Source: Desulfobacterales bacterium
GTDB taxonomy: Bacteria; Desulfobacterota; Desulfobacteria; Desulfobacterales; SpSt-501
NCBI GenBank assembly: GCA_025454255.1
Contig: JALOOU010000014.1
Location: forward strand, 20,186-84,185
DNA length: 64,000 nt
Reading direction: 5' to 3'
Both the position numbers and the translations under genes were made by a program. Shown piece after piece: positions 28,065 through 44,638 of the stretch (the stretch's first letter is position 1; every line of letters begins with the position of its first letter). The notes beneath the pieces are model-generated. The model saw only the letters and a list, made by a program, of their open reading frames with translations, made no database searches and was not told the origin of the DNA.

Positions 28065-28892
28065 ATGCGTGAAAATGGGATTATGATCGATGTTCGAACT
28101 CCAAGCACCATCGGACAGGCGATGATGAAAGACCCCTGCAAACACCCCAAAGACTACATCATCTTCCCGCTGGACGTGCCCTCGGAGAGCGAAGCGCAGC
28201 GCTGCGTGGAGCTGCTGGCCGATGCAGTGGGCATGTTCAAGGTCGGGCTCGAGGTGTTCATCCGCTGCGGCCCGGCCATCGTCCGCTTCATCCATTCCGC
28301 CGGGGCCGCCGGGGTCTTTCTGGACCTGAAGCTGCACGACATACCGGCCACGGTGTCGCGGGCCATGGCCGGGGTGGCGGAGCTGGGCGTGCGCCTGGCC
28401 ACGGTGCACTGCGGCGAAACCCCGCGCATGATGGAGGCCGCCGTGGCTGCCAGCCGCGGCCGCGTCGGCGTCCTCGGCATCACGGTGCTGACCAGCGTGA
28501 CGGCCGCGGAGCTCGCCGCTTCAAGCGGGCGGCCGGAGCAGGCGGGCGACCTGGAGGGTGTGGTGCGGCAGCGGGCGCGGATGGCCCGGCAGGCCGGCTG
28601 CGCCGGGGTCGTCTGCTCGGGCCTGGAGGCGGGTGCGATCAAGGCGGAATTCGGCCGGGATTTCATCACCGTGACCCCGGGCATCCGCCCGCTGTGGGCG
28701 GCCGGGGCGGCCGACGACCAGCGGCGGGTCACCACCCCGGCCGAGGCGGTGCGCTGCGGGTCGGACTACATCGTCATCGGCCGGCCCATCCGAGATGCGA
28801 AGGACCCGCGGGATGCCGCGCGCCGCATCGCCGATGAGATCGCCGCTGCCGCCGGCCGTCGCGGCGCCGCACTGCCTGCGGTCGGTTCCTAG
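28065..28892 (+). CDS. pyrF: Orotidine 5'-phosphate decarboxylase
   Basis: Final step of UMP synthesis: decarboxylates OMP. TIM-barrel motifs: IIFPLDVPSESEAQR, VGMFKVGLEVF, the catalytic FLDLKLHDIPATV (Asp-Lys-Asp tetrad), TVHCGETPRMM, VTPGIRPLWA and YIVIGRPIRDAKDP. Start is uncertain: 28065 has the best ribosome site (AGGAAAG) and gives 275 residues, whereas 28122/28125 would give the more usual 255. It lies just downstream of the long hairpin after rfbB and converges on the response regulator gene. Confidence 0.93.
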   Translation: MRENGIMIDVRTPSTIGQAMMKDPCKHPKDYIIFPLDVPSESEAQRCVELLADAVGMFKVGLEVFIRCGPAIVRFIHSAGAAGVFLDLKLHDIPATVSRAMAGVAELGVRLATVHCGETPRMMEAAVAASRGRVGVLGITVLTSVTAAELAASSGRPEQAGDLEGVVRQRARMARQAGCAGVVCSGLEAGAIKAEFGRDFITVTPGIRPLWAAGAADDQRRVTTPAEAVRCGSDYIVIGRPIRDAKDPRDAARRIADEIAAAAGRRGAALPAVGS

Positions 28893-28922
28893 ACGGGCGC
28901 ACCCGCAAAGACCCGGCGCCGC

Positions 28923-29600
28923 TCACTCCTTCCAGCGGTCGATGTCGATGATCCCCACCTTGGCGGCGTAGCGGATCAGCTCGAAGCTGCTGTGCACCCC
29001 CAGTTTGCGCATGATGCTAGTGCGGTGGTTCTCGACGGTTTTGGGGCTGATGAACAAGCGCTCGCCGATCGTCCGCAGCGATTGGCCCTCGGCCAGCAGC
29101 GCCAGGATCTCCTGCTCGCGGACGGTCAGGGACTCGTAGTCCGGATCCCGCGTGGAGCGCGGGGCGACGTTCAGGCCCGCCAGCTTCTGGACCACCTTCT
29201 GGGACATCGCCGAGTCCATGAAATACTCACCCCGCAGGACGAACTCGATGGCCTGCAGCAGCCGTTCGGCGGCCGACTCCTTGGTCACGAAGCCGGTCGC
29301 CCCGGCCTGGAAGGCCTTGACGATGTAGTCGACCTTGGAGTGCATCGTGACCATCATCACGCGGGTCTGGGGCAGGCGTTTGCGCAGCTGACGGGTCAGT
29401 TCAATGCCGGTCTGGTCCGGCAGGGAGATGTCCACCAAGACGAGCTTCGGCCGCAGCGCGGCGGCCAATTGCAGGGCCTCGTCGCCGCGGCCGGCCTCCC
29501 CGACGACCTCGTATGCCGGGTTGCGGGAGATGATGGCTTTAAGCCCCTCCCGAAACAACGCGTGGTCGTCGACGATCAGGATGCTCTGCCTGCCGGCCAT
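28923..29600 (-). CDS. NarL/LuxR-family response regulator
   Basis: Two-domain transcription factor of 225 residues. The receiver domain (1-125) has the acidic DD pair at 11-12, phospho-acceptor D57 in LVLVDISLPD, and lysine in GFVTKES. A LuxR-type helix-turn-helix lies at the C-terminus (LTVREQEILALLAEGQSLRTIGERL, SPKTVENHRTSIMRKLG). Its cognate kinase is encoded 4 bases upstream. Being at the end of the minus-strand run that begins with bcs/ole genes, it may control them (inference). Confidence 0.94.
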   Translation of the reverse strand: MAGRQSILIVDDHALFREGLKAIISRNPAYEVVGEAGRGDEALQLAAALRPKLVLVDISLPDQTGIELTRQLRKRLPQTRVMMVTMHSKVDYIVKAFQAGATGFVTKESAAERLLQAIEFVLRGEYFMDSAMSQKVVQKLAGLNVAPRSTRDPDYESLTVREQEILALLAEGQSLRTIGERLFISPKTVENHRTSIMRKLGVHSSFELIRYAAKVGIIDIDRWKE

Positions 29601-29604
29601 GCGA

Positions 29605-30945
29605 TCACCCCCTGCGCGGCAACTTGATGAGGATGCGGGTCCCCCGTCCCGGCGTGGAGGCCACGATCATGACGCCGCCGAGCAGCGCGGTTCGCTCCTG
29701 CAGGCTGCGCAGCCCCATGCGTTTTTCGGAATCCATCTCCCGCGCGCGCTTTTCGACGTCGAAGCCGATGCCGTTGTCCTCGATTCTCAGAAGGATGTTC
29801 GGGTGCGCCGCCGTCAGCTTGACGACGGCCTCGGTCGCCGCGGCGTGTTTGTAGATGTTGTTTAACCCCTCCTGGAGCATGCGGTAGAGATTGATCTGGG
29901 TGTCAACGTCGAGCGTGAGCGCCTCGATGCCGGCGAACCGGTAATCCACGTGGATGCCCGTTTTTTCGAAAAACTCATCGCACACCGTGGCCATGGCCGG
30001 CACGATCCCCATCTCATCGAGCCCCGGAGGGCGCAGGTCGTAGGCCAGGTCGCGGATGGCGCGGATCGAACGGTCGAGCAGTCCGGAGAGGGCGCCCACC
30101 TTGGCACCCGTCCCGGCAGCGGCCGGAGGGAGGCCGTCGAAGAGGGTTTCCAGCGATAGCCGGATCGTGGAGAGGTCCTGGCCCACCCGATCGTGCAGCT
30201 CCCGCGATATCAGGCAGCGCTCGTCTTCCTGGGTTTGCATAAGCTTGCGGGTCAGCGTCCGGATCTGGGTTTCGGAGCGCTGGCGTTCGCGCAGATGCCC
30301 GATCCAGCTGTTCAGCTTGACGACCGCCGGGTCGGCGGCCGCGACCGTTCGCGGCGGCATGTGATAGAAGTTGTCGTAGAGTTCGGTGCCGATGGCTGCC
30401 AGCGGGTGGGCCTCGAGCACGCCCAGCAGCAGCGGCGCGTCGAAACGGCGCCGATCGTATTGGCAAAGGGCGAGGCAGCCGCTGCCGGGCAGCCAGGCGT
30501 CGAGCGCCGACTCGGCTTCGACCAGCCGCTCGGGGCCGGGCTGTTCCGCGAACCGCCGGCTCATTTCGATTGCGATTCTAAGGCCGCTGTAGCCTTGCGC
30601 GCGCGCCGGCCCGATCTCGGCCTGCACCCGTGCGGCCATCCCTTTCAGGTCCACGGCGCCCCCGCGCCGGGCGAAGCGCTCCGCCGGCAGAATCCGGATC
30701 TGGCCGCTTTGCTCGCGGGGGCCCACCTGGACCCCGTCCGCATCGAGGTAGGCCCGGATCTGTTCGGCGCCATGGGCCTCGGTCAGGCAGAGCAGTTTTT
30801 CATGGCGTTCGAGGCCGTGGCGCATGAAGGCGGCGGTCAGGGCCCGGTGCTCCTGCTCGGATTCGAACAAGAAGCAGACGTGCGCCCCGGGGCGAAGCCC
30901 CCAGAGCCTCTGCTCCCACTCGGAATTCTGCCGGTGTGCGCTCAT
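29605..30945 (-). CDS. MEDS-domain sensor histidine kinase (HisKA_3 type)
   Basis: A 446-residue cytoplasmic kinase without membrane segments. Residues ~15-200 form a MEDS (DcmR-type) sensory domain: PGAHVCFLFESEQEHRALTAAFM, GYSGLRIAIEMS, CLALCQYDRRRFDAPLLLGVLEAHP. Then a HisKA_3 dimerisation helix with phospho-His in RELHDRVGQDLS and a HATPase_c domain (GLNNIYKHAAA, IEDNGIGFD, MGLRSLQERTALLGG). MEDS was proposed as a sensor of simple hydrocarbon derivatives. The kinase pairs with the LuxR regulator, 4 bases downstream, and follows the PocR gene and oleABCD on the same strand. Confidence 0.9.
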   Translation of the reverse strand: MSAHRQNSEWEQRLWGLRPGAHVCFLFESEQEHRALTAAFMRHGLERHEKLLCLTEAHGAEQIRAYLDADGVQVGPREQSGQIRILPAERFARRGGAVDLKGMAARVQAEIGPARAQGYSGLRIAIEMSRRFAEQPGPERLVEAESALDAWLPGSGCLALCQYDRRRFDAPLLLGVLEAHPLAAIGTELYDNFYHMPPRTVAAADPAVVKLNSWIGHLRERQRSETQIRTLTRKLMQTQEDERCLISRELHDRVGQDLSTIRLSLETLFDGLPPAAAGTGAKVGALSGLLDRSIRAIRDLAYDLRPPGLDEMGIVPAMATVCDEFFEKTGIHVDYRFAGIEALTLDVDTQINLYRMLQEGLNNIYKHAAATEAVVKLTAAHPNILLRIEDNGIGFDVEKRAREMDSEKRMGLRSLQERTALLGGVMIVASTPGRGTRILIKLPRRG

Positions 30946-31014
30946 CTGCTCCCCGTCATCTCGGTGGGGGCCCTGCTGCCGCCCATGCCGCTCGACGGGC
31001 AGAGCCGGTTGTGG

Positions 31015-31530
31015 CTAGCGGTGCGCCGCCGTGACCGCGGCGAGGATCTCCGCCACCGCTGCGGCGATCGAGCGCCCCAGCGCCTCGGTCTTCTCCCGCG
31101 AGACGGGCAGGACCGTGGCGGAAAGGGAGTCGACCGTCTCCGCGTCGATGTCGGTCATCTTGGTGACCAGGAAGGCGTCGATCTCGGCGTCTTCGAACCT
31201 CATCCCGCAGGCGCCGACCGCGCCGAGAAACTCGCCGTTCAATCGGATCGGCACGACCAGCTTGACCATGCCGGCGTCGCACTCCTCGACTACCGGTTCG
31301 CCGGCGCGCATGGCCTGCGCCGCGATGTTCATGTGGGCCGGCGCGCAGATGAAGCTCTGGCCCTTGTCGGTCTCCTTGATGGCCGGACAGAGCCGGTTGG
31401 CCCAGTTCTTGACCGGCGTGATGCGGTAGCCCCGGATGTCGAAGACGTTGGCATCCATGCCGGTGCGCGCGTGGATCTCCCGTTCGAGTTCGATCCAGCG
31501 CTCCAGGGGGGCGACGTCCGTCAGCTTCAT
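31015..31530 (-). CDS. Stand-alone PocR-type ligand-binding protein
   Basis: Single sensory domain of 171 residues resembling the PocR domain: GMDANVFDIRGYRITPVKNWANRLC, then CAPAHMNIAAQAMRAGEPVVEECDAGMVKLVVPI, then GEFLGAVGACG. PocR domains normally sit on regulators or kinases and sense small alcohols or diols. Here there is no output domain, so it may work with the adjacent MEDS kinase. Start 31530 follows AAAGGACCCG and overlaps the oleD stop (ATGA), giving coupling to the olefin operon; the ORF-track extension upstream is an oleD shadow. Confidence 0.82.
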   Translation of the reverse strand: MKLTDVAPLERWIELEREIHARTGMDANVFDIRGYRITPVKNWANRLCPAIKETDKGQSFICAPAHMNIAAQAMRAGEPVVEECDAGMVKLVVPIRLNGEFLGAVGACGMRFEDAEIDAFLVTKMTDIDAETVDSLSATVLPVSREKTEALGRSIAAAVAEILAAVTAAHR

Positions 31531-32549
31531 GTCGGGTCCTTTCCGTTCGGTTTGAGCCAGGCCGCGAGCCGGCGCAGGCCCTCCGCCGTCGAGACGGCCG
31601 GCGCGTATCCCAGGTCGCGGCGGGCGGCGGAAATGTCGAACCAGTGGGCCCGGGCCAGGGCGTCGGCGACAAACCGGGTCAGCGGGGGGTCGCCCGAAAG
31701 GCGCAGCCCGCTGTAGATCAGCTCGCAGGCCCAGCCGATCAGCCATGCGCTGCGGTGGGAGATGCGGCCCTTCACCGGGCCTCGGCCGGCCGCCCGGAGG
31801 ATGGCGTCGATCATGTCCCAGGCCGGGATCGGTTCGCCCTGGCTGATGAAGTAGACCCGGCCCGAGAGCCCGGGGGCCTGCCGGAGGCGGTCGGCGGCGA
31901 GCAGGTGCGCCGCCGCGGCGTTGTCGATGTAGGTGGTGTCGACCAAATTTTTGCCGTCGCCGATGCGCCGGAGGCGGTGGGCGCGCGCCAGGATGCGCGG
32001 CACGAAGTGCGGGTCGTGCGGGCCCCAGATCTCGTGGGGCCGCAGCACGACGGCCGGCAGCCCCCCGGCCGCGGCGCGCAGGACCTGCTGCTCGGCAAGG
32101 GCCTTGGTTTCGGCATAGGGCGAGTGCCAGCGCGCCGGATAGGGTGCGGATTCATCGACTCCCTCCAAGTCGCGGCCGTCGAAAAGGACGCTGGGGGTGC
32201 TCGTGTGGATCAGCCGCTGCACCCCGCAGCGGCGGCAGGCCGCGATCACGTTGGCGGTGCCGGTGACGTTGGTGCGCCGATATTCGTCGGGCGGCCCCCA
32301 GGGCGGAGGTTTGGCGGCGGTGTGGTGGACGACGTCCACCCCCCGGCAGGCGCGCGCGAGGGCGTCCCCATCGGCGATATCCCCCCGGATGTGGGCGACG
32401 CCCAGCCGGGCGAGGCGCGGGTGCTCCGCGCGCGAAAAGCTGATCACCCGGTCGCCGCGGGCGGCCAGCCGGCGCGCGACCGCCGAGCCGAGGAAGCCCC
32501 CGCCGCCGGTGACCAGCGCCGTTTCAGGTGCGTGCGGGGGCATCGGCAT
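31527..32549 (-). CDS. oleD: OleD, NADPH-dependent 2-alkyl-3-ketoacid reductase
   Basis: Reduces the 2-alkyl-3-keto acid from OleA to the beta-hydroxy acid, the second step of long-chain olefin synthesis. Extended SDR, 340 residues: ALVTGGGGFLGSAVARRL at the N-terminus, HHTAAKPPPWG near 75, and YAETKALAEQ (catalytic Tyr/Lys) near 145, plus LRPHEIWGPHD as in 3-beta-HSD-like reductases. It overlaps oleC by 26 bases and lies in the standard neighbourhood oleA-B-C-D, which makes the assignment firm despite the broad family. Start could be shifted two codons (32543). Confidence 0.92.
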   Translation of the reverse strand: MPMPPHAPETALVTGGGGFLGSAVARRLAARGDRVISFSRAEHPRLARLGVAHIRGDIADGDALARACRGVDVVHHTAAKPPPWGPPDEYRRTNVTGTANVIAACRRCGVQRLIHTSTPSVLFDGRDLEGVDESAPYPARWHSPYAETKALAEQQVLRAAAGGLPAVVLRPHEIWGPHDPHFVPRILARAHRLRRIGDGKNLVDTTYIDNAAAAHLLAADRLRQAPGLSGRVYFISQGEPIPAWDMIDAILRAAGRGPVKGRISHRSAWLIGWACELIYSGLRLSGDPPLTRFVADALARAHWFDISAARRDLGYAPAVSTAEGLRRLAAWLKPNGKDPT

Positions 32550-34257
32550 GCAGACGCTCCGTTTCCCGCAGGCGGCGAAGATCGGCCGGGCCGATTTTTT
32601 TGCGGGCCCAGTCGGCCAGCTGCTCGCGGAAGATTTTGGCGTTGTGGCGGATGTCCACCGGGAATCTGCGGCGGAAGAGCACGACCCGGATGGGCTGCGT
32701 GATCTCGTGCTCCTTGGCCAGCGCCAGCAATTCGGCTTTGAGTTTCCGGCGGCTGCGGCGGCGCTCCGCCGGCAGAAGCTCGATGCAGATCACCGGCACC
32801 TGGTGCGGGGGGGGGCCGACGCCGACCAGGGCGCTGCGCAGCACCGCCGGGTGGCGGTTGAAGATGCTCTCGCAGGGGATGGTGTAGAGGGTCCCGCCGG
32901 GGGTGATCACCCGGTGGCTCTTGCGCCCGCAGAACCAGATGCGCTCCTTGCGGTCGACCCAGCCCAGGTCCCCCATGCGGTGCCAGACCTCCCCGTCCTG
33001 GGGGATTTTCGCCAGGCGGTCGGCCGCGGGGTTTTCGAAATAGCGCCGGCTGACCAGGCCCCCCCGGACGGCGATCTCGCCGATCTCCCCAGGGGGCAGC
33101 ACGAGCTCCTGCGACCACTGCCGGATCGGTTCGTCGCTGACGGCGATGATGCGCACGGCGACGTCGTTGATCGGGCGGCCGACGCAGATGCCGAAACCCT
33201 GATCGGTGAGCGGCCGGGTCTCGGCGAGGATCTCCCGGGCGGTGATCGAGGTGACGGGCACGGCCTCGGTGGCGCCATAGGGGGTTTCGATCCGGGCGTC
33301 CGCGGTCAGCAGATCGGCGAAGCGCTCAAGGGTGCGCGGCGGAACCGGCGCTCCGGCGCAGATGACGCGCTTGAGGGAGTGCAGCCGGATCCCCTTGCCG
33401 CCGCCGTAGGCCCCCAGGCGCTGGAGCAGGGCGGGGGATGCGAACATGTTGGTGACGCCGTGGTTCGCGACGGCCTCAAAGATGCGCTCCGGGTTGGCGC
33501 GGGCGGGCCGGGTGGGGTCCATCTCCGGGATCACCGCCGTGACCCCCAAGGCGGGGTAGAAAAGCGCGAACAGCGGAAAGGTGGAGAGGTCGATCTCGTC
33601 GTCGTCGAAGGCGAGATGGCGGCGGATCTGGTCGAGCTGGGCGTCGAAGTTGCCGTGGGTGTAGACCGCGCCCTTGGCCGGCCCGGTGCTGCCGGTGGTG
33701 AAGAGGATGGCGGCCGGCTCGTCGGCCCGGGTGCGGGCCGTCTCGAAGGGGGGCAGACAGCGGGCGCGCAGCTGCCGCAGCGTGGGGCCGCCCCAGAACC
33801 AGCGGCGTCCCACCGTGATCCGGGTGCGCACGGATCGGAAGTGCCTGGCGCAAAGCACCCGCACCGCATGCGCAAGGGGGATGCCGATGAAGGCCTGGGG
33901 CCGCGTGGAGCGGTAGCAGGCGAGCAGACGGCGGATCCCCATGCCCGGGTCGACGACGACCGGGACCGCGCCCAGCTTGAACAGGGCGAAGACCAGCACG
34001 AAGAATTCGATGCTCGGGCGCACCATCAGGATCGTGCGCGTGCCGCGGTCGATGCCGGCTTCCTTCAGCCCGTAGGCCACGACTCCGGACTCCCGCTCCA
34101 GCTGGTCGAAGGTGAGGTGGGCGTAAGCCGTCCGGCCGTAGCGGTCGCGGCCGGCCGGGCACACCACGGCCCGCCGCATGGGCCGGTGGCGGGCGGCGTG
34201 CGTCAGGTGGTCGGCCACGTTGACGGCGTCGGTTGTCGGGCGGGGGGTCTCCTCCAT
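32524..34257 (-). CDS. oleC: OleC, beta-lactone synthetase (AMP-ligase family)
   Basis: Converts the 2-alkyl-3-hydroxy acid to a beta-lactone with ATP. ANL-superfamily signatures over 577 residues: ILFTTGSTGPAKGAVYTHGNF (P-loop) near 175, PYGATEAVPV near 315, and RMGDLGWVDRKERIWFCGRKSH near 450. The C-terminal lysine region ends with DIRHNAKIFREQLADWA. OleC-typical is the fatty-acyl ligase-like N-terminus and position between oleB and oleD. Start at MEETPRP (34257), 39 bases after oleB; the ORF-track start is 13 codons earlier without a clear site. Confidence 0.93.
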   Translation of the reverse strand: MEETPRPTTDAVNVADHLTHAARHRPMRRAVVCPAGRDRYGRTAYAHLTFDQLERESGVVAYGLKEAGIDRGTRTILMVRPSIEFFVLVFALFKLGAVPVVVDPGMGIRRLLACYRSTRPQAFIGIPLAHAVRVLCARHFRSVRTRITVGRRWFWGGPTLRQLRARCLPPFETARTRADEPAAILFTTGSTGPAKGAVYTHGNFDAQLDQIRRHLAFDDDEIDLSTFPLFALFYPALGVTAVIPEMDPTRPARANPERIFEAVANHGVTNMFASPALLQRLGAYGGGKGIRLHSLKRVICAGAPVPPRTLERFADLLTADARIETPYGATEAVPVTSITAREILAETRPLTDQGFGICVGRPINDVAVRIIAVSDEPIRQWSQELVLPPGEIGEIAVRGGLVSRRYFENPAADRLAKIPQDGEVWHRMGDLGWVDRKERIWFCGRKSHRVITPGGTLYTIPCESIFNRHPAVLRSALVGVGPPPHQVPVICIELLPAERRRSRRKLKAELLALAKEHEITQPIRVVLFRRRFPVDIRHNAKIFREQLADWARKKIGPADLRRLRETERLHADAPART

Positions 34258-34296
34258 GGCAGGGTGAAACCTACACCAATCCGCCGCGGTTTTCAA

Positions 34297-35199
34297 TCAG
34301 GGCAGCCGGTGGCGCTTCAGGAAATCGAGGACCAGCGGCACGATCGCATCCGCGGCATCCTCCAGAACGTAGTGGCCGGCCTGCGCGAAGAGATGGGCTT
34401 CGGCTCCGGGGAAGCGGCGCCGCCACTCGCGGTAGTAGTCGGCGTCGAAGACGAAGTCCTTCGCTCCCCAGCAGATCAGCATCGGCGTTGCGGCCAGCGT
34501 CGGCAGCCCTTCGTCCACGCGGCGCACGATGGCATAGCTGGGATCGCGCGCCGTGAGCGGGATGTCGCGGACGAATTCCAGGGTGGCCGTGCGGCCGGCG
34601 CGGCAGCGGGTGGGGGCCAGCAGCCCGCGGCGCACTGCGGGCGCCAGTCGTTTGGCCGAGGCCGTCAGCAGCGCGCCGCGGGCGAACAGGTTGAACCGCA
34701 GGATCGCCGGGCCGCTGATGCGGGACGTCCGGCGGATGAAGGCGAGCACCGTGGGCAGCGGTTTATCGGCCGGCTTGCGGAAGGCGGCCGTGTTCAGGAC
34801 GATGAGCCGGCCGATGCGCTCGGGGTGCCGCAGGGCGTAGGCGGCGCCGATCATGCCGCCCCAGTCGTGCAGGACGAGGGTGATCCTCTCCCGGACGCCG
34901 ATCGCTTCGAGCAGCCGCTCGAGGTCCTCGATGCGGTTGCTCAGACGGAAGGGGTAGTCGCCGGCGGCGGGCATCTCGGAGAGGCCGCAGCCGATGTGGT
35001 CCGGGGCGACGGCGCGGCGGTCGACCGAAACGGCCTTGATCAGCTCGCGAAAGTAAAACGACCACGTGGGGTTGCCGTGCAGCATGACCACCGGCTCGCC
35101 GGTGCCTTCGTCCACGTAGTGCATGCGGCGGCCGTTGACCTCCTGGAACCGTGAGGCGAAGGGGTAGAGATGGCGGAAGGGGGCGAGGTCGATCTTCAC
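34297..35199 (-). CDS. oleB: OleB, beta-lactone decarboxylase (alpha/beta hydrolase)
   Basis: Removes CO2 from the beta-lactone to yield the cis-olefin. The 300-residue alpha/beta hydrolase resembles haloalkane dehalogenases: oxyanion HGNPTWSFYFREL near 41, nucleophile Asp in LVLHDWGG (about D112) rather than the usual Ser, and catalytic His in QAGHYVLED near 275. The Asp nucleophile is diagnostic of OleB in this context. It overlaps oleA by 4 bases and precedes oleC. Confidence 0.93.
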   Translation of the reverse strand: MKIDLAPFRHLYPFASRFQEVNGRRMHYVDEGTGEPVVMLHGNPTWSFYFRELIKAVSVDRRAVAPDHIGCGLSEMPAAGDYPFRLSNRIEDLERLLEAIGVRERITLVLHDWGGMIGAAYALRHPERIGRLIVLNTAAFRKPADKPLPTVLAFIRRTSRISGPAILRFNLFARGALLTASAKRLAPAVRRGLLAPTRCRAGRTATLEFVRDIPLTARDPSYAIVRRVDEGLPTLAATPMLICWGAKDFVFDADYYREWRRRFPGAEAHLFAQAGHYVLEDAADAIVPLVLDFLKRHRLP

Positions 35200-36236
35200 C
35201 AGCGCACGCCCAGCATCAGGCAGTTGAGCCCGCTGCCGATGCCCAGCAGGCCCACCGAGTCCCCCGGCGCGAGGAAGCCGCGCTCCTCGGCGATGGCCGC
35301 GGTGATCGGCAGCGACACCGTGCCGATGTTGCCGAGGTGGCGGAAGGTGGTGAAGTCGCGTTCGGCGGGCACCCCGATGGCCTCCAGGAGGGCGCGCTGG
35401 TGGGCGGCGCCGACCTGGTGGCAGATGATCTTTTCGGGTTGGTCCGGGCCGAGCGCCAGCGACCGGCGGAATTCGCCGAAGGTCTCGACGCCTAAGGCCA
35501 CGCCGTGCTGCAGCACCCTGGTCGAGTCCGTCTCGGCCATGTGGTTCGCGCCGGCAGGGATTCCGGTGGCGGGGCCCCAGGTGCAGAGGCGGTGGTGCTC
35601 GGGGGCGCTGCGGGCCACGCCTCCGAGCAGCCGGCGCCCCTCGGGGGCGAGGGCGGCGTCCGCCAGCAGCACGCCGACAGCGCCCGAGCCGCCGGTCAGG
35701 GTGGCGATCGTCTTGCGCAGCACCTCCATGCTCTTCTCGCGCAGCAGCCGCTCGACGGTCAGGTCGACGATTTCGCGCGCCGATTCGCAGGCCACCACCA
35801 GCCCGGCCTCGACCTGGCCGAGCTCGATGGCGTTGGCGACCTGCACCATCCCGTTCAGGACCCCCAGGCAGGCGTTGGAGACGTCATACACCTGGCAGCC
35901 CGGCGGCAACTTCAGCGCATCGGCCACGGCGCAGGCGGTGGCCGGCTCCAAATTTTCGCGGCAGACCGCCGCGTAGATCAGCATTCCGACCCGTTCGCGG
36001 GGCACCCCGGAGGCCTGCAGCGCCTTGCGGCCGGCGCGGGCCGCGCCCGCGGAGAGCGCCGCCCCGGGGCTCCAGTAGCGGCGCTCCTGGATGCCGGTGA
36101 TCGCCTCCAGCTGGCCGCGTTGAAGGCGCAGCGCAGCGTAGAGCGGCGCGAGGCGCTGCTCCAGGTCTGCGGAGGTGACGACGTCCGGCGGCAGTTCGTA
36201 GCCGAAGGCGGCGATGGATACGCGTGAGTAGTTCAT
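35196..36236 (-). CDS. oleA: OleA, acyl-CoA/acyl-ACP head-to-head condensing enzyme
   Basis: Thiolase-superfamily enzyme (FabH-like, 346 residues) that joins two fatty acyl chains to a 2-alkyl-3-keto acid. Catalytic Cys in VSNACLGVLNGM is C123. A glutamate in CRENLEPAT (E97) lies 26 residues upstream, the same spacing as the OleA-specific base E117 to C143 of the Xanthomonas enzyme. His in CHQVGAAHQ and Asn in GNIGTVSLP complete the triad. The E97 match separates it from FabH. A strong promoter lies just upstream (36252-36280), with almost no leader and no clear Shine-Dalgarno. Confidence 0.95.
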   Translation of the reverse strand: MNYSRVSIAAFGYELPPDVVTSADLEQRLAPLYAALRLQRGQLEAITGIQERRYWSPGAALSAGAARAGRKALQASGVPRERVGMLIYAAVCRENLEPATACAVADALKLPPGCQVYDVSNACLGVLNGMVQVANAIELGQVEAGLVVACESAREIVDLTVERLLREKSMEVLRKTIATLTGGSGAVGVLLADAALAPEGRRLLGGVARSAPEHHRLCTWGPATGIPAGANHMAETDSTRVLQHGVALGVETFGEFRRSLALGPDQPEKIICHQVGAAHQRALLEAIGVPAERDFTTFRHLGNIGTVSLPITAAIAEERGFLAPGDSVGLLGIGSGLNCLMLGVRW

Positions 36237-36251
36237 GGCTGCTGTCGACGG

Positions 36252-36280
36252 TTCATAGGCAACGGGGCCGGCCGTGTCAA
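36252..36280 (-). promoter_or_regulatory. Strong sigma-70-type promoter in front of oleA
   Basis: Minus strand TTGACA (36280-36275), 17-base spacer, TATGAA (36257-36252). The predicted start, near 36245, leaves only about 9 bases before the oleA ATG, so the ole transcript would be nearly leaderless. It allows oleABCD to be expressed apart from the bcs-pfaC genes upstream. Confidence 0.65.
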
Positions 36281-36389
36281 CGGTTATTGCAGCGGCGCCG
36301 GGTCCGCCCGCCAGCGGCGCGGTGCGGCCGCCCCGGTGGCGCGGCGGCGGTGGACGGGTCCCGATGCGGGCCTGTCGCGGGTTGCCGCT

Positions 36390-39300
36390 TTAGTCGTGTA
36401 CGGGCACGAGCCGGATCCCGAAGCCATCCATGCGGTAGATGGGAAGCCCGTCCACCCGGAGGATGCCGGATGCCTCCAGCCCCGGCTGCGGGGTCGGTTG
36501 CACGGCGGTGATGGATGCCTCGACCGTGACCCTGCGGCTGGACGGCAGGATCTGTCCCCGGTAGGTCCAGCGATGGGGCTTTCCGGTTTGAGGCGCAAAG
36601 CGGTGCGAATCGACGAGCCCGGGCCAGCGCTGCCGGGCGGCGAACTTCAGCAGCTGGAGGAAGCTTTCGATCCCCAGGGAGCCGGGGCAGACCGGGTCCT
36701 GGTAAAAGTGGGCCTTGAAAAACCACTCCTCCGGAGCGACCCTTTTGAAACCGCGCACGAATCCCAGCCCGGCCGGCCCGCCGTGCGGCAGGTGCCGGTC
36801 GATGCCGTCGAGCATGCGCAAGGCGCCGGCGGGCATCGCCAGGGGCGGGGCGGGGCTTGCGCCCGGATCGTCGGGGGTGAGCGGGGCCTCGGCGGCAAAA
36901 AGAACGGGCTGCCGCTGCTCCTCTCCGGCCGGCGCGGCGGCCGTTCCGGGCGCCTCGCGCAGGCCCTCCTGCCGTTGCAGGGCGGCGGGCGTGAAAAACC
37001 CGAAGTAGGTCGAGCCCTCGTAGACCGGGCCCGTGCGGCTCGAGATCTCGAATTCGAAATGCTCGATGATCATGTCCGGCACCTCGGAGATCTGGCGCAT
37101 GCGCACGCGCGTCCGCAGGGTGCCGTCGTCGGGGCCGTGGTCGCGATGCAGCAGCGCCTGCCCGCCGAGGTTGCGGAAATGGAGCGGTTTATCGCTTTTC
37201 AGCGCCGAGCCCATGAAGGCCGCCAGCCAGCCGCAGGGCTGCAGGGCCGCCTCGAGCAGGACGCAGTAGGGGACCGATCGGCTGCGGTCGGCCCGGATGT
37301 ACCAGGCGTCGGGCGGCACGTCGAGTTCGGCCGTGACCCACCCGCCCGGCTGAAGCTCCCAGGCCGGGGGCTCGACCGCGGTGATGCGGTCGATGAAGAG
37401 GTAGGGCGGGGCGGGCAGCCGGGCGATGAAGCGCTCCGCGTCGAACGGCCGATAGGCATCGCCGAAGGCGCGGGAGGGGCGGCCGCGGGCGAACTCCAGC
37501 AGATGGCTGCGCGCGAAGCGGGCCGGGGCGGCGGGCGGTGCCGTCGCGGCGGGCGCCGGCCGTCGCCGCCGCCAGAAGGCCTCGATCTGCTGCCGGTCGG
37601 CGCCGGCCAGCTGCAGGGACATGCCGGTGAAGCGCACGATCTGGCGGCCGTCGGCCAGCATATCGGCGTCGGCCAGGGCATAGGGCTGCGGTCCGTAGCC
37701 GAGCTCCTTGATGTCCACCTGGTAGACGACGCGGCGAGTGCGGGGGGTCACCGGCCCGCGGCACTTGAGGGCGGCGCGCACGCCCGGCAGCGGGGCGTAG
37801 CGGGCGTCCGGGGCATCGGTGACCCATCCCAGCCGCTGCACGAAGACCCGCAGGGCGTGGGCGCAGCACTCGTACATCAGAGTGCCCGGCATCACCCGGT
37901 CGTCCACGAAGTGGCAGGTCAGAAACCAGGCGTCGGGCCGGATGTCGGCCTCGGCCCGGATGCGGCCGATCCCGTAGCGGCCGCCGGCGGGGTCGAACTC
38001 GAGCACCCGGTCGATCAGTTTCATGCGGCCGCCGGCAAGCCGGAGGGCCTCGGGCAGTTGAACGCCGTCGAACGCCCGGCCGAAACAGGCCGCAAGGTCG
38101 CCGCGGCGCAGGGCCTCCAGGGCCGCTTCATCGTAGGCCCCGGGCGACAGGGGCACGGGGTCGGCCCAGTCCGGCGGCCTGCGGCCGGCGGAGGGCCGGA
38201 GCTCCTCTCCGGCCAGGATGATGCCGCCCGAGGCCTCGACCTCCTCCGGGGTGAAGAACCCTGCGCACCCGTCGGTCATGGTGATGAGCGGCGCCCCATC
38301 GATTTCGCCTCGGAAGCGGAAGAGAAAAAGATAGGTTTCGCCCTGGCGCAGGAATTTTTCGATCGTGATGTCGTAGCGGATGGTTTCGCCGGGCCGCGGC
38401 AGGTCGCGGTGGAACTCCACCGTCGCATCCAGCAGCCGATAGGTGCGGCGGCCGCGCACGATCTTGTCGATGCCGAGATAGGCGCACAGGAAGAGGTCGG
38501 CCTGGCCGGCCTCCACCGCGATGCACACCGGCGCCCGGCCGCCGTCGAGGTACCAGGCGCCCGGGAGCACGTCATGCTCGGTCACCACCCGGCCGGGGCC
38601 CAGAACCCCCTTTTCGCCGCGGACCTCGAGAATGCGGTCCACCAGCATCAGCGGCTCGTCCGGCAGACGCACCCGGGCTGCAAACCCGTCCACCTCGGCA
38701 AACTCCGGCCCCAGCACCTTGGCCGCCGAGCCGCGGGCGAATTCGAGGCATTGGCTGCGGTCGAAGGCCGGCCCCTTCGCCGGGGCGGGGGGGCGGCCTG
38801 CCGCTGCCTCTCCGCCGCCCGCCGCCGCCAGGAGCCCGGCGTGGACCTTCAGGGCCTCGGCGTAGCGGCGGGTGATGTCGCCGGAGATCTCGAGAAATGC
38901 CTGATGGGCGCGGGCGGTGGCCTGGCTCGCGTGGGCCAGTCCGTCGATCAGGCCGGCTCCCGGCGCCCCTGCCGGGGCCGGCGGAGCGGCGGCCGGGCGG
39001 CCGGCGGCGGGGGGTGCCGCCGGCCGGGGCGCCGGAGGCACGTGGAGCGGTTTTCCCGCCACGGAAACTCGGATCGAATCGGCCCGCTGCGGGGGCGGCT
39101 GGAGTTGGCCGGGGCGGGCCGCCGCCGGCGGGAGCGCAACGGCCTGGCCGGCGCTCTCCAGAACGACGTGCATGCAGTTGCCTTCGTCGCTGAGGCAGGC
39201 GGCGAGTGCGCGGCGGGGGGCGGCGCCGCGCCGAAGCGGCTTCGGGACGCCGGTGGTGGACGGCGCGCGCGGGGCCGTCGCGCCGTGGTAGAGGCTCAGG

Positions 39301-41861
39301 GCGGCCTTCACGACCGAAACCAACCCGGCTGCCGCACCGGTGTGGCCGCAGACCGGCTTGGCCGATCCCGGCGGATCGCCGTCGGCCATTGCCCGTGCAA
39401 AGCGGCCGAGCAACTCGGACTCGAGGGCGTCCTCGGCCGGGATCCCGCTGCCGTGGGCCTCGATCGCGTCGATGCCGGAGGGGTCGACGCCGGCCTCCGC
39501 CAGTGCGGCTTCCAGCGATCTGCGGTAGGCATCGCGGCTGGCGGTTTCGGAGTCGATGCCGCCGCCGCCGGCGGCGCCGACCCCGCGCACCACGGCGTAG
39601 ACCCGGTCCCCGTCGGCCAGCGCCCGGTCGAGGCGCTTGAGCACGAGGGCCACCGCCCCCTCGCCCGGCAGGGTGCCCTCGCTGGCCGGATCGAACGGGC
39701 GCAGCCGGCCGCCGGCCGAAAACGGACGCAGCGCCCGATGGAGGGCGACGGCGCGCAGATCGCCGCACAGGTCCACGGCCCCGGCCAGCGCCCAGTCCAG
39801 CTCATCGGCCTGCAGCGCGCGCAGCGCCTTCTCGAGCGCGCGCACGCCGGATGCCTCTGCGGCCGAAAGCGTGAAGCTGGGCCCGCCCAAACGGAACTCG
39901 CGTGCGATGCGGCTTGCCGCCATGCTGCCCAGGGCGCCCAGCACCCGGCTGGCGGTGAGCGGCGGGCTGCAGGCGTCCTGGGCGCGGGCGATCCAGTCGA
40001 GCGTCTCCGGGGCAGCTGCGCAGTCGCGGCGCGGCTCCGCCCGGCGCGCATCGAGCAGCCAGCGCAGGTGGAAGTTGGTGGCCTCGAAGTCGAAATCGAT
40101 GCCGATCAGCGCCCCCGCGCGGGGGCGCTCCCGGCGCAGTTCGAGTCCGGCGTCCTGCAGCGCGTCGGCGGCGACGTTGAGCATGAGCAGCTGCTGGGGC
40201 AGGATGTCGGGGATCTCCCGCGGCGGGATGCGGAACCGGCCGGACGGAACGATAAAGGCATCCTGGAACCCGCCCGCAAGCGGCTGAAGGTCCGGCAGGA
40301 GCCGGTCGCAGTCCTTCCACCGGCCGGCCGGCCGTTGGCGGATCAGCGGCGTTGCTGCGAAGAGCGCCTCGCGCAATGCGGCCAGCGAATCGGCCCCGCC
40401 CAGACAGGCCGCCATGCCCACGATGGCCACCGCCGGCGGGCCGGCACCGGGGATGCCCGCGACCGGAAAAGGGGCGTTCGGCGTCCGGGCGGGTGCGCCG
40501 CGCGCGGCGGCGGAGCCGCTCGTCTGCCACTCCTCGAGCAGCAGATGGGCGTTGATCCCGCCGAAGCCGAACGCGCTGACGGCCGCCCGGCGCGGGGTCT
40601 GTGGGGTTCGCCGCGGCCAGGGTTCGGCCTCGAGCGGGACCCTGAACGGCCCCCCGTGCAGCGGGCTGTGGGGCGGCGCCTGCCGGAAGTGCAGGGTCGG
40701 CGGCAGGGTGGCGTGCTCAAACCCCAGCAGGGTTCTGATCGCGGCCGCCGCTCCCGCCGCCGTCAGGAGGTGGCCGATCATCGACTTGACCGACCCCAGG
40801 GCGCACTGGCCCGGCGCCCAGCCGGCATCGGCCCACAACCGCCGCAGGCTCTCCAGCTCGACGGCATCGCCTACCGGGGTTCCGGCGCCGTGGCATTCGA
40901 TATAATCGACGTCCGCCGGCGACCACCCCGCCGCGGCGTAGGCCGCGGCCATGGCGCGCAGCTGCCCCTCGCTGTCGGGGGCCAGCAGGTTGCCGCGCAG
41001 GTCGTTGGAGAGGCCGATGCCGCGGATGAGCCCGAGGATCGGGTCCCGCTCGGCGAGTGCGTCCGGCAGGCGCTTCAGGGCGAGGAGCCCCGCCCCTTCG
41101 CCGACGACCAGGCCGTCGGCGCTGCGGTCGAACGGGGCGCAGCGGCCGCTGGGCGAAAGCGCCCTCAGCTGGCTGAAGCCGACCTGGGTGAAGAGGCAGT
41201 CCGGCCGGGAGAGCCCGCCGGCGAGCATCGCATCCGCCCGTCCCGCGGCCAGCTCGTCGCAGGCGAGCTTTATGGCGTAGAGCGAAGAGGCGCAGGCGGC
41301 ATCCAGGGTCAGGCTGCCGGCGCCCAGCCCCCAGGCCTTGGCCAAAACGGCGGCGGGCAGTCCCGCCACGCGGGCGGCGAGACTGGGGCCGCGGCCTCCG
41401 GAGACAGCCGGCGGCCGCGGCGGATCCGCCTCCAACAGGCGGCCGAGCAGCTCGCGCGTGAAGCGCGAGGAGGCCTCCGTGGGCAGGACCAGGGCGGCCA
41501 GAACCACGCCGGTCCGCTCCCGATTGAGGCGCGGGGGGGCCGGCCCTGCAAGGATCTGCCGGCTGGCCTGGAGCAGCACGTGGTAGAGCGGGTCCAGCTG
41601 CCGCAAAAGGTGCGGGTCGATCGCCAGCCCCTCGGGGTCGAAGCTGAACTCCGGCAGCAGGCAGCAGCGGGCGGAGACGGCCTTGTCCGGCTGGAGCTCG
41701 GCGCGGACCATCTGCTCGGGGGGGGCGATCCAGCGGGTGCGGGGCACATCGGCCGCGGCATCCCTTTTGGAGCAGATGTTGGCCCAGAGGCGGCCGGGGT
41801 CGAGCGCTCCCGGGAAAAGCCCGGCCATGCCGACCACGGCGATGGGGGTCGCAGGGCTCAT
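36390..41861 (-). CDS. PfaC-like PUFA/secondary-lipid synthase subunit (KS-CLF-DH-DH)
   Basis: An 1823-residue iterative type I synthase subunit. Domain order: ketosynthase (1-~435; active Cys DAACASSLYA at 190, His in ECHGAGTPVGD and VKSMIGHLL); chain-length-factor ketosynthase (~460-880) whose active Cys is replaced by Glu (LSAAEASG, E669); an Ala/Pro linker; then four FabA-like hot-dog units (from ~1030). Units two and four carry catalytic His in CHFVDDRVMPGTL (H1317) and AHFYQDPVCPGSL (H1718); units one and three lack it, giving the pseudoDH-DH-pseudoDH-DH layout of PfaC. It would dehydrate and isomerise growing chains carried on PfaA ACPs. Start overlaps the bcsC stop (ATGA), coupling it to the cellulose operon. 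Confidence 0.93.
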   Translation of the reverse strand: MSPATPIAVVGMAGLFPGALDPGRLWANICSKRDAAADVPRTRWIAPPEQMVRAELQPDKAVSARCCLLPEFSFDPEGLAIDPHLLRQLDPLYHVLLQASRQILAGPAPPRLNRERTGVVLAALVLPTEASSRFTRELLGRLLEADPPRPPAVSGGRGPSLAARVAGLPAAVLAKAWGLGAGSLTLDAACASSLYAIKLACDELAAGRADAMLAGGLSRPDCLFTQVGFSQLRALSPSGRCAPFDRSADGLVVGEGAGLLALKRLPDALAERDPILGLIRGIGLSNDLRGNLLAPDSEGQLRAMAAAYAAAGWSPADVDYIECHGAGTPVGDAVELESLRRLWADAGWAPGQCALGSVKSMIGHLLTAAGAAAAIRTLLGFEHATLPPTLHFRQAPPHSPLHGGPFRVPLEAEPWPRRTPQTPRRAAVSAFGFGGINAHLLLEEWQTSGSAAARGAPARTPNAPFPVAGIPGAGPPAVAIVGMAACLGGADSLAALREALFAATPLIRQRPAGRWKDCDRLLPDLQPLAGGFQDAFIVPSGRFRIPPREIPDILPQQLLMLNVAADALQDAGLELRRERPRAGALIGIDFDFEATNFHLRWLLDARRAEPRRDCAAAPETLDWIARAQDACSPPLTASRVLGALGSMAASRIAREFRLGGPSFTLSAAEASGVRALEKALRALQADELDWALAGAVDLCGDLRAVALHRALRPFSAGGRLRPFDPASEGTLPGEGAVALVLKRLDRALADGDRVYAVVRGVGAAGGGGIDSETASRDAYRRSLEAALAEAGVDPSGIDAIEAHGSGIPAEDALESELLGRFARAMADGDPPGSAKPVCGHTGAAAGLVSVVKAALSLYHGATAPRAPSTTGVPKPLRRGAAPRRALAACLSDEGNCMHVVLESAGQAVALPPAAARPGQLQPPPQRADSIRVSVAGKPLHVPPAPRPAAPPAAGRPAAAPPAPAGAPGAGLIDGLAHASQATARAHQAFLEISGDITRRYAEALKVHAGLLAAAGGGEAAAGRPPAPAKGPAFDRSQCLEFARGSAAKVLGPEFAEVDGFAARVRLPDEPLMLVDRILEVRGEKGVLGPGRVVTEHDVLPGAWYLDGGRAPVCIAVEAGQADLFLCAYLGIDKIVRGRRTYRLLDATVEFHRDLPRPGETIRYDITIEKFLRQGETYLFLFRFRGEIDGAPLITMTDGCAGFFTPEEVEASGGIILAGEELRPSAGRRPPDWADPVPLSPGAYDEAALEALRRGDLAACFGRAFDGVQLPEALRLAGGRMKLIDRVLEFDPAGGRYGIGRIRAEADIRPDAWFLTCHFVDDRVMPGTLMYECCAHALRVFVQRLGWVTDAPDARYAPLPGVRAALKCRGPVTPRTRRVVYQVDIKELGYGPQPYALADADMLADGRQIVRFTGMSLQLAGADRQQIEAFWRRRRPAPAATAPPAAPARFARSHLLEFARGRPSRAFGDAYRPFDAERFIARLPAPPYLFIDRITAVEPPAWELQPGGWVTAELDVPPDAWYIRADRSRSVPYCVLLEAALQPCGWLAAFMGSALKSDKPLHFRNLGGQALLHRDHGPDDGTLRTRVRMRQISEVPDMIIEHFEFEISSRTGPVYEGSTYFGFFTPAALQRQEGLREAPGTAAAPAGEEQRQPVLFAAEAPLTPDDPGASPAPPLAMPAGALRMLDGIDRHLPHGGPAGLGFVRGFKRVAPEEWFFKAHFYQDPVCPGSLGIESFLQLLKFAARQRWPGLVDSHRFAPQTGKPHRWTYRGQILPSSRRVTVEASITAVQPTPQPGLEASGILRVDGLPIYRMDGFGIRLVPVHD

Positions 41862-44638
41862 CGGCCGAACTCGCGGAAAAAATCCCTGCGCTGCCAGAGC
41901 CGGTGCTGCGGTTCGAAGAAAATCTGGAGGCCGGCGCCGACCACCCATTCGGTGGCGTCGGAGCTGTTGTCGATCCCGGCAAATCCGCCGGCGGCCAGAT
42001 GCGGGGTCACCAGGTGCATGCCCTGCAGCTTCAGGCTGACGCCGATCTTGTTGTCGCTGTCGGCCGCGTACTTGCCGTTGGCTTCGGCGGCGGCGGCGGG
42101 GGTGAAGCCGGCCGTATCGCCGCTGAAGAGCGGGTAGAAGGGGCTGGCGTCGAGACGCTGGTGCAGCCAGCCGGTCGCGGCCTGGACGTCGACCCATGCG
42201 TTGCGGCACAGGGCGGTGCGGTAGCGCACGAACGGCCCCACCATGGTCATCAGCTCCGGGCTGTAGTAGCCCCCGTGGCCGAAGGTGTGAAAATCGCTGT
42301 TGCGGTGAAAATGCCGCGCGGTGGCGAAGAGGCCGGCGCTGAGTTCGTCCGCGCCGCGCCACCAGGTCCGGCCGACGGCCGTGTCGAGCTGAACGGAGTA
42401 GTTGTCCCAGACCCGCTCCCCCCGGTAGGCGTCGAAGCCGGCCGACCCGCTCACCCACCAGCGGTTTCCCAGCGGCCAGCTCGTGCCGGCCTCGATGCCG
42501 TTGCGGGTCACCCGGCCCCAATCGTCCCGGCTGTAGGGGTCCTGCTGGCCGACATAGGAGAGGATCGAATCCTTCACCGGCAGCCGGTGCGCCTGCACAT
42601 AACCGCTCGGCGCGCTGAGCCGGGCGCTGAAGGTGGGCGTGGGGTCGACCGGCCCGCCGAGGGGCGTTGCGCCGGCCTGAACCCGCAGGTGCAGACGGCC
42701 CTCCATCTCGACGCCGACCTGCGGCTGCACCCCGAACACCGAATCCTCGAGATCGCGCTGCGGGGGCAGGCCGTTCAGGCTCTGGTAATAGCGGCCGGCG
42801 CGCGGGGGGGAGGGCCCCGCGTCGCCTTTGAGCCAGGTGGGGGTCAGCGTGGCAAACCACGAGGTGCCCAGCGGCGTCGGCACCACCAGGGTCAACGGCA
42901 GCGCAGTTTCCGCCAGGTCGCTGTATCTTCCGCTGCTTTGCTTGTTGCGGTGGTAGAGAAAGGCCTCGACGCGCGGCGAGTCGGCGTGGGTGTAGCACCG
43001 GCCGGGGCCCGGGTCCAGCTGGGCGGCCGTGACCGGCGCCCCGCGGTCGAAGAAAAAGCCGCCGGCGGCGGCCCGGAGCGTCGGGTCCGGGTCCCGCGCC
43101 AGGCGGGCGGCCAGATCATAGCCCGCCTGCTCGTCGCCGGCGGCGCCGTAGATGCCCAGCAGCCCCCCGGCCAGGCCTGCGCCGGGGCTGCGGGCGAAGG
43201 CCGCCTCCATCAGCGGCCGGGCGTCGCCGTGCCGCCCCTGTTCGTAGCGCGCCCAGGCGAGCAGCTCGCCGGCGGCCGGGTCCGCCGGGTCCAGGGCCAG
43301 GAGCTTCTCCGCCGCAGCGGCGGCGCGGTCCCAATCCTGCGCCGCGGCGGCGGCACCGGCCTGCCGGCGGTAGACCAGCGTTCGGAGCGCACGGGTATCG
43401 GCATCCTCGGGGATCCCCCCCTGGTCGAGGGGCGCGAGGGCGGTATCCAGCCGGCCGGCGTTCAGCCGGGCATAGCCCTGGCCCAGCGCGAACTGCTTGT
43501 TGCCGGGCTCACGCGCCAGCAGCTGCGCGAAGATGCGGTCGGCCTCTTCGAACCCGCCCCGGTTCAGCGCATCCCAGGCCAGTGCGGCCAGGGCGTCGCG
43601 GTCCTCGGGGGCATGCTCCAGGACGGCCCGCGCGGCGGCAGCCCGCTCCGGGGAGTCCGCCGGGAGCTCCGCCAGCCGGCGCCTGAGGAGGTCGGCCTCG
43701 ATTCGGCTGAACGCGGCCCGCTCATCCGCGGGACGGCCTTCAAACATCGGCGCCTGCCGCTGCATCAGCTCCATCGCCTCGTCCGGGGCCAGCGCGGCGG
43801 CCAGATCGCTCAGGATCCCCGCCCGCAGCGCCGGCGGCAGGTCGCATGCGAGCAGGCGGCGCTGGAGCGCTGCGGCCGGAGGGCCTTCGCCGGCCGCGCG
43901 CAGCTTGAGACCGACCGCGTGGAACAGATCCGGCCGCAGGCACCGTTTCAGAGCCTCCTCATGGGTTGCGAGAAACGCGCGCAGCGCGGCCGCGTCGGCC
44001 TCCTCGGCCAGGGCGGCGTGGTCCGCGGCCAGGTGCGCTTCGAGCAGGCGGCGCTCCCATGCGCGGCGCCGGTCGGGGGGGGGCTGCGCGATTTGGCGGC
44101 GGGCCTCCTCCCAGCGGCCGGAGCGGATCAGGAGATCGACCAGGGCCGGCCGGGTCTCGGGCAACCGGTAGCGGTCGCGGACGAGGGCGGAGAGGTGCGC
44201 GGCGGCCTGATCGATCTTGCCGAGACGCGCCAGCGTGTAGGCCAGCCCCAGCCGGGCGTTCATGGCATCCTCGGGGGGGGGGGAGGCGAGCAGGGTCGCA
44301 AAAAGCCCGGCGGCGGCGCTGTAGCGCCCCGCTGAATAGTGCTGCCACGCGCGGGAGAGGTCCGAGGGCGGCGCGTCGGACCCGAAACCGGCCTGCGGCA
44401 TCCTGTCGGCCTCCAGGATCTCGGCGTCCGGCGGCGTGGCATAGACCCAGTCCGGATCGACGAGGTCGACGCGGCTGTCGTCCGGGCGGGTGGTGACCAT
44501 CTCCTCGGAGCGGGACTGGCGCACCGCCTGGTCATGGACGGCCGCTTCGCGTTCCAGCGCCAGCGTCTGGCCGACTCCTTCCACGGCCGGGATCAGCCAG
44601 AGTGCGAGAGCGCACAGTGAGACGAGGCAGCACCTCAT
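41858..44638 (-). CDS. bcsC: Cellulose synthase outer-membrane export protein
   Basis: Exports the cellulose strand across periplasm and outer membrane. The 926-residue protein has a signal peptide (MRCCLVSLCALALWLIPAVEG), TPR-type helical repeats from ~60 to ~540, and a C-terminal beta-barrel region of ~350 residues ending ...GAGLQIFFEPQHRLWQRRDFFREFGR with many alternating aromatic strands. E. coli BcsC is about 1160 residues; the shorter length reflects fewer TPRs. Start at 44638 overlaps the bcsZ stop (ATGA). Its own stop overlaps the pfaC-like start. Confidence 0.9.
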   Translation of the reverse strand: MRCCLVSLCALALWLIPAVEGVGQTLALEREAAVHDQAVRQSRSEEMVTTRPDDSRVDLVDPDWVYATPPDAEILEADRMPQAGFGSDAPPSDLSRAWQHYSAGRYSAAAGLFATLLASPPPEDAMNARLGLAYTLARLGKIDQAAAHLSALVRDRYRLPETRPALVDLLIRSGRWEEARRQIAQPPPDRRRAWERRLLEAHLAADHAALAEEADAAALRAFLATHEEALKRCLRPDLFHAVGLKLRAAGEGPPAAALQRRLLACDLPPALRAGILSDLAAALAPDEAMELMQRQAPMFEGRPADERAAFSRIEADLLRRRLAELPADSPERAAAARAVLEHAPEDRDALAALAWDALNRGGFEEADRIFAQLLAREPGNKQFALGQGYARLNAGRLDTALAPLDQGGIPEDADTRALRTLVYRRQAGAAAAAQDWDRAAAAAEKLLALDPADPAAGELLAWARYEQGRHGDARPLMEAAFARSPGAGLAGGLLGIYGAAGDEQAGYDLAARLARDPDPTLRAAAGGFFFDRGAPVTAAQLDPGPGRCYTHADSPRVEAFLYHRNKQSSGRYSDLAETALPLTLVVPTPLGTSWFATLTPTWLKGDAGPSPPRAGRYYQSLNGLPPQRDLEDSVFGVQPQVGVEMEGRLHLRVQAGATPLGGPVDPTPTFSARLSAPSGYVQAHRLPVKDSILSYVGQQDPYSRDDWGRVTRNGIEAGTSWPLGNRWWVSGSAGFDAYRGERVWDNYSVQLDTAVGRTWWRGADELSAGLFATARHFHRNSDFHTFGHGGYYSPELMTMVGPFVRYRTALCRNAWVDVQAATGWLHQRLDASPFYPLFSGDTAGFTPAAAAEANGKYAADSDNKIGVSLKLQGMHLVTPHLAAGGFAGIDNSSDATEWVVGAGLQIFFEPQHRLWQRRDFFREFGR

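Follow-up and report, generated by a model that had tools for sequence, protein, structure and literature searches.

Introduction

The PocR domain is usually regarded as a hydrocarbon-sensing module that is joined to a regulator. PocR and MEDS domains were together proposed to be sensors of simple hydrocarbon derivatives, according to the title of a 2005 paper that is cited in PMC9768040 and PMC8784404. For a cluster of alkene-oxidation genes, the predicted sensor is EtnR2, a MEDS-domain protein whose partner is a regulator of the CdaR type (PMC8784404). Linkage of the ole genes, which encode a head-to-head olefin pathway, to pfa genes has been described in Shewanella and Photobacterium (PMC6463001). 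Additionally, a PocR-domain protein that is also annotated as a kinase has been mentioned in the acetogen Clostridium autoethanogenum (PMC10230548); it may lie outside the stand-alone branch described below.

Here, we analysed a DNA stretch of 64,000 nucleotides (the window) from a Desulfobacterales MAG (87% complete, 4.1 Mb), in which a stand-alone PocR protein follows oleABCD. The window protein has a PF10114 match, Cys48, Cys62, Cys84 and a GAF/PAS-like fold in common with the PocR regulator and the PocR-domain histidine kinases; in contrast to these, it is a single-domain protein that lacks a DNA-binding or kinase part and has a fourth invariant cysteine. The GAF, IclR and CodY effector domains are the nearest folds to the PocR model, yet they show no sequence similarity to it. 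The adjacent kinase shares a full-length MEDS domain with the known MEDS sensors (PF14417: DcmR, EtnR2 and the methanogen MEDS kinases). Whereas EtnR2 has a CdaR-type partner, the MEDS domain in the window is fused to a HisKA_3-HATPase part and the partner regulator is of the NarL/LuxR type. As in Shewanella and Photobacterium, oleABCD lies downstream of a Pfa-type synthase; unlike those clusters, the Desulfobacterales version has PocR behind oleD, an arrangement for which the searched literature held no description.

Results and Discussion

Organization of the locus

All genes of the locus share the minus strand and run from the PfaC-like synthase through oleA, oleB, oleC, oleD, PocR and the MEDS kinase to the response regulator (Table 1). 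All four ole genes are thus present in order, with OleD scoring below its NCBIfam cut-off. The start codon of PocR and the stop codon of oleD share four nucleotides (ATGA), 69 bp separate the PocR stop codon from the kinase start, and the kinase and regulator genes are 4 bp apart. The preliminary description of a stand-alone PocR coupled to oleD with a MEDS histidine kinase next to it is borne out by the gene order, the Pfam matches and the ATGA overlap. Family searches of the whole genome, an 87% complete MAG, returned a single PocR match and a single MEDS match; as each is single-copy in 4.1 Mb, their adjacency by chance would be expected about once in 2000.

Table 1. Positions of genes, domains and cysteine codons of the locus within the window
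Feature	Position	Strand	Properties
NarL/LuxR-type response regulator	28923..29600	-	225 aa; Response_reg 106 bits, GerE (helix-turn-helix) 73 bits; acceptor Asp57
MEDS sensor histidine kinase	29605..30945	-	446 aa; Pfam MEDS 122.8 bits + HisKA_3 + HATPase_c; H-box His251
MEDS domain of the kinase	30403..30882	-	residues 22-181
Stand-alone PocR-domain protein, four-cysteine variant	31015..31530	-	171 aa; Pfam PF10114 62.4 bits, cut-off 23.9
Cys108 codon of PocR, extra cysteine of the stand-alone variant	31207..31209	-	invariant in stand-alone PocRs
Cys84 codon of PocR, in ECDAG	31279..31281	-	invariant 62/62 + 30/30
Cys62 codon of PocR	31345..31347	-	invariant 62/62 + 30/30
Cys48 codon of PocR	31387..31389	-	invariant 62/62 + 30/30
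oleD, 2-alkyl-3-oxoalkanoate reductase	31527..32549	-	top NCBIfam match OleD NF042422, 386 bits, below the 580 cut-off; gene order
oleC, olefin beta-lactone synthetase	32524..34296	-	PRK09274 735 bits (above cut-off); olefin beta-lactone synthetase 617 bits
oleB, alpha/beta hydrolase (beta-lactone decarboxylase)	34297..35199	-	haloalkane-dehalogenase-like; gene order
oleA, thiolase-fold condensing enzyme	35196..36236	-	PRK09258 465 bits, above cut-off
Polyketide-type fatty-acid synthase (PfaC-like), upstream of oleA	36390..42998	-	ketoacyl synthase + FabA domains

The two places suggested for binding of the regulator, around 36252-36280 and around 50424, carry no inverted repeat; G+C-rich ones occur only nearby. 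A search for sigma-70-like promoters in 28700-36500 gave none (0.3 expected). Neither result is informative in a G+C-rich genome. A 110-aa gene behind the regulator was considered as a PilZ protein, for which Pfam gave no support. Further along the minus strand, an N-terminal CheD domain is fused to an HDOD domain (25344-26696), which is an unusual pairing, and a frame with SelA-like sequence (L-seryl-tRNA(Sec) selenium transferase; 23911-25887) was recognised by eye and suggests selenocysteine use.

Cysteines and predicted fold of PocR

PocR is the sole Pfam family in the 171-aa protein, which, like its relatives, carries no output domain. Sequence alignment revealed that C48, C62, C84 and C108 were invariant in all 62 aligned stand-alone proteins of the order and in all 30 from a phylum-wide set, 19 of which were from outside the order. 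Two of the cysteines are missing from the diverged second copy of one tandem pair, L211 (W at 62, G at 108). The fused PocR domains from 30 loci of the same order kept C48, C62 and C84 where aligned, and position 108 was occupied by Gly in 17, Ile in 5 and Val in 1 of the 23 that aligned there. In a second set of eight fused domains, which partly overlaps these 30 loci, six had Gly at 108 and two were unaligned there. The two groups also differed in their PF10114 scores, mostly 83-190 bits for fused domains versus about 60-77 bits for stand-alone proteins. The fourth invariant cysteine, Cys108, can be regarded on these alignments as diagnostic of the domain-only PocR branch.

The AlphaFold2 model of the PocR protein showed a mean pLDDT of 95.2. 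Foldseek placed it nearest to the solved IclR effector, GAF and CodY domains, with probabilities of up to 0.99, TM-scores of about 0.3-0.5 and no E-value below 0.001. Among solved structures, we found no PocR relative by sequence and no close one by fold.

Distribution of stand-alone PocR and its association with ole

Matches to the PocR query (P0001) were present in 116 of 194 Desulfobacterales genomes, and almost all of them fell within reading frames of approximately 165-265 aa. Counted at more than 68 bits, stand-alone PocR occupied 134 places in 113 genomes. It lay directly behind oleD on the same strand in 35 of these 134 places, and the gap between the match ends was at most 40 bp in 24 of the 35; among 80 named loci, this position was found in 37. 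The part of the preliminary description that coupled PocR to ole was thus upheld beyond the window. Isolates with the ole-PocR junction include Desulfosarcina cetonica (L154) and D. alkanivorans (L199). Neighbour counts in the very G+C-rich contigs L104 and L121 rest on tblastn.

At the genome level, 83 genomes had both PocR and OleD, 44 had only OleD and 30 had only PocR (odds ratio 2.3, p 0.009, uncorrected for phylogeny). Genomes of one or two contigs fall into both of the latter groups: G151 and G172 carry PocR but yield no OleD match, and G049, G070 and G117 carry ole but no stand-alone PocR. The 30 genomes that hold PocR without ole and the 44 with the reverse make a feedback loop dedicated to ole no more than a possibility. 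Mapping the ole label onto the PocR tree takes 14 changes, of which at least four are forced by well-supported branches, compared with 31 in shuffles, which indicates that the junction recurs and is partly inherited and that it is not the marker of a single clade. The PocRs of genomes with no OleD match include the nearest ones found outside the genus (about 60-62% identity), and none of the 19 PocRs that a phylum-wide search found outside the order lies within 1.5 kb of oleC or oleD. Judged from its sequence, stand-alone PocR forms a branch of its own within the PocR domain family, common throughout Desulfobacterales and conserved across many families of sulfate reducers. The searched open literature held no description of stand-alone PocR with ole or iron-sulfur proteins.

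Tandem pairs of stand-alone PocR, with a strongly diverged second copy, were observed at L072, L174, L192 and L209-L211. Two very similar ole-PocR-hdr loci (L187 and L189) lie on one chromosome, CP070652.1.

Association with an Hdr-like cassette

We compared the neighbours of PocR at 97 distinct loci and found ole upstream in 39, an Hdr-like cassette beside 29 and an ACT-DUF711 pair downstream in 13; as the loci were partly chosen for absence of ole, these fractions are not frequencies. The cassette is composed of a small FAD oxidoreductase, a FlpD-domain 4Fe-4S protein, an HdrC-like 4Fe-4S protein and a CCG-domain HdrB-like protein. Its position relative to PocR varies, on either side and in either orientation. 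The HdrC of the cassette was used as a marker and was present in 80 of the 194 genomes above a clear score gap. PocR and HdrC occurred together in 65 genomes, PocR alone in 48, HdrC alone in 15 and neither in 66 (p 3.5e-8). The association of PocR with the Hdr-like cassette is stronger than that with ole, with odds ratios of 6.0 and 2.3, respectively, both uncorrected for phylogeny. Some contigs combine more than one of these modules; at one locus (L146), oleABCD, PocR, hdr, ACT and DUF711 follow one another on a single contig. In another family (f29), genomes that lack ole retain PocR-ACT-DUF711.

The MEDS kinase and its regulator

The kinase core is complete, with intact H, N and G boxes after the full-length MEDS domain, and the MEDS kinase and the regulator are predicted to be a complete two-component pair. 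The two genes are side by side in all seven genomes of the genus, and they are linked to ole-PocR in only three (G000, G174 and G153). In G000 and G174, they directly follow PocR, and G153 has a HAMP-SpoIIE phosphatase gene between PocR and the kinase. The other four genomes (G190, G127, G090 and G030) have the pair on another contig without ole, where an EamA transporter gene precedes the kinase and the regulator is followed by small conserved genes and then UspA, while PocR remains behind oleD. This EamA-kinase-regulator-UspA cluster is near a DsrC/Hdr cluster, whose DsrC and Hdr names were assigned by eye from the sequences. Beside ole-PocR in G153, the regulator is still followed by the small genes and UspA, from which it seems that the kinase cluster and the ole-PocR cluster have been brought together.

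A second kinase-regulator copy in G174 (L105, C290) is 77% identical over 1.4 kb to the ole-linked copy and has the usual small genes behind it. An assembly overlap was considered for this contig and rejected at only 77% identity, which leaves a second copy or a contaminant.

Of 187 genomes outside the genus, 16 have MEDS, in no case on the same contig as stand-alone PocR, a count that is limited by MAG fragmentation. Conversely, 93 of the 113 genomes with stand-alone PocR contained no MEDS domain. The MEDS kinase is best described, on these gene neighbourhoods, as a local neighbour of PocR and not as its general partner.

Alternative explanations and proposed role of PocR

The preliminary description raised the possibility that PocR acts as a detached sensor of the MEDS kinase and that the two together mediate feedback by product or precursor on the ole operon. 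The two genes are adjacent and probably co-transcribed in G000 and G174 and are one gene apart in G153. Both domains were also proposed in the same 2005 paper, known here by its cited title, to sense simple hydrocarbon derivatives, and EtnR2 offers a putative MEDS precedent at an alkene-related cluster. However, the kinase and PocR are unlinked in four of the seven genus members, most PocR genomes lack any MEDS domain, and the 16 MEDS genomes outside the genus never have it on a PocR contig. Linkage in three of seven genomes, together with the 93 PocR genomes without MEDS, makes the kinase an improbable user of PocR as its sensor, and this explanation is the one that we consider least credible. 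The pairing of PocR with MEDS was thus not upheld, and a tempting but weak inference, namely that the neighbouring kinase is the partner of PocR, is removed.

Alternatively, PocR could be an accessory subunit of an Ole enzyme assembly or an ole-specific regulator that serves hydrocarbon synthesis only. Its recurrent position behind oleD, the short gaps in 24 of 35 places and the ATGA overlap in the window are consistent with such a role. Nevertheless, we regard it as unlikely: 30 of the 113 PocR genomes, including those of the closest PocRs found outside the genus, have no OleD match, 44 OleD genomes lack PocR, and the 19 PocRs outside the order all keep the four cysteines with none beside oleC or oleD. 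The neighbourhood might also be an inherited gene order without functional meaning, in which ole, PocR, hdr, ACT and DUF711 have been together since an ancestor. The serial arrangement on the L146 contig and the PocR-ACT-DUF711 genes without ole in family f29 fit this explanation, which as a whole appears doubtful to us in light of the tight, same-strand PocR-oleD spacing across families, the at least four and most simply 14 shifts of the ole label on the PocR tree, and the variable placement of hdr. Part of the PocR synteny may still be inherited order and not function, as PocR-ACT-DUF711 persists without ole.

The reading that we prefer, to which we give an even chance, is that PocR is a metal- or redox-dependent sensor or adaptor, often co-transcribed with ole, for which the MEDS kinase is not the general partner. 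PocR would be a soluble, GAF-like protein; in many lineages, its gene closes the oleABCD operon or immediately follows it. The presence of four invariant cysteines in anaerobes, together with frequent iron-sulfur neighbours, suggests a metal or redox centre; the cysteines may bind a metal or an iron-sulfur centre or serve as redox thiols. Because it has no output domain, PocR would have to act through partners, presumably by contacting partner proteins in a sensor or adaptor role. Its synthesis would accompany that of the Ole enzymes, and its function would extend to Hdr-type electron-transfer systems. As for the MEDS kinase and regulator, they would have come to adjoin ole-PocR in a small number of species within one genus. 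A more far-reaching proposal, which we put forward as speculation and consider rather unlikely, is that the four-cysteine stand-alone PocRs of anaerobes are metal- or iron-sulfur-dependent redox sensors or adaptors that link the synthesis of long-chain hydrocarbons by ole with Hdr-type electron transfer. The domain-only branch is distinguished by its diagnostic fourth cysteine and by its recurring proximity in genomes to olefin synthesis genes and Hdr-like cassettes. The metal or redox centre is a concrete prediction for a protein family of unknown role and bears on how anaerobes might couple membrane hydrocarbon synthesis to redox state.

Other signalling genes beside PocR

In two genomes of family f29, a PAS histidine kinase gene ends at or overlaps the start of PocR, which makes a pairing of PocR with some kinase possible, and a receiver-PAS-SpoIIE protein is encoded behind PocR in one further genome. 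The signalling partners of PocR may therefore differ by lineage.

In G125 (L065, 6055-8004) and G028 (L067, 6061-8004), which have a second stand-alone PocR, we also observed a receiver-PAS-PAS-HATPase gene that overlaps its start. Genes for SpoIIE-type phosphatases adjoin stand-alone PocR in G153 (L075, 10464-12239) and G151 (L033, 5992-7626), and a gene of the same cluster is present in G172. Finally, stand-alone PocR lies beside B12-binding radical SAM genes at three loci (L225, L052 and L055), two of which also have an AsnC/NirDL-like gene.
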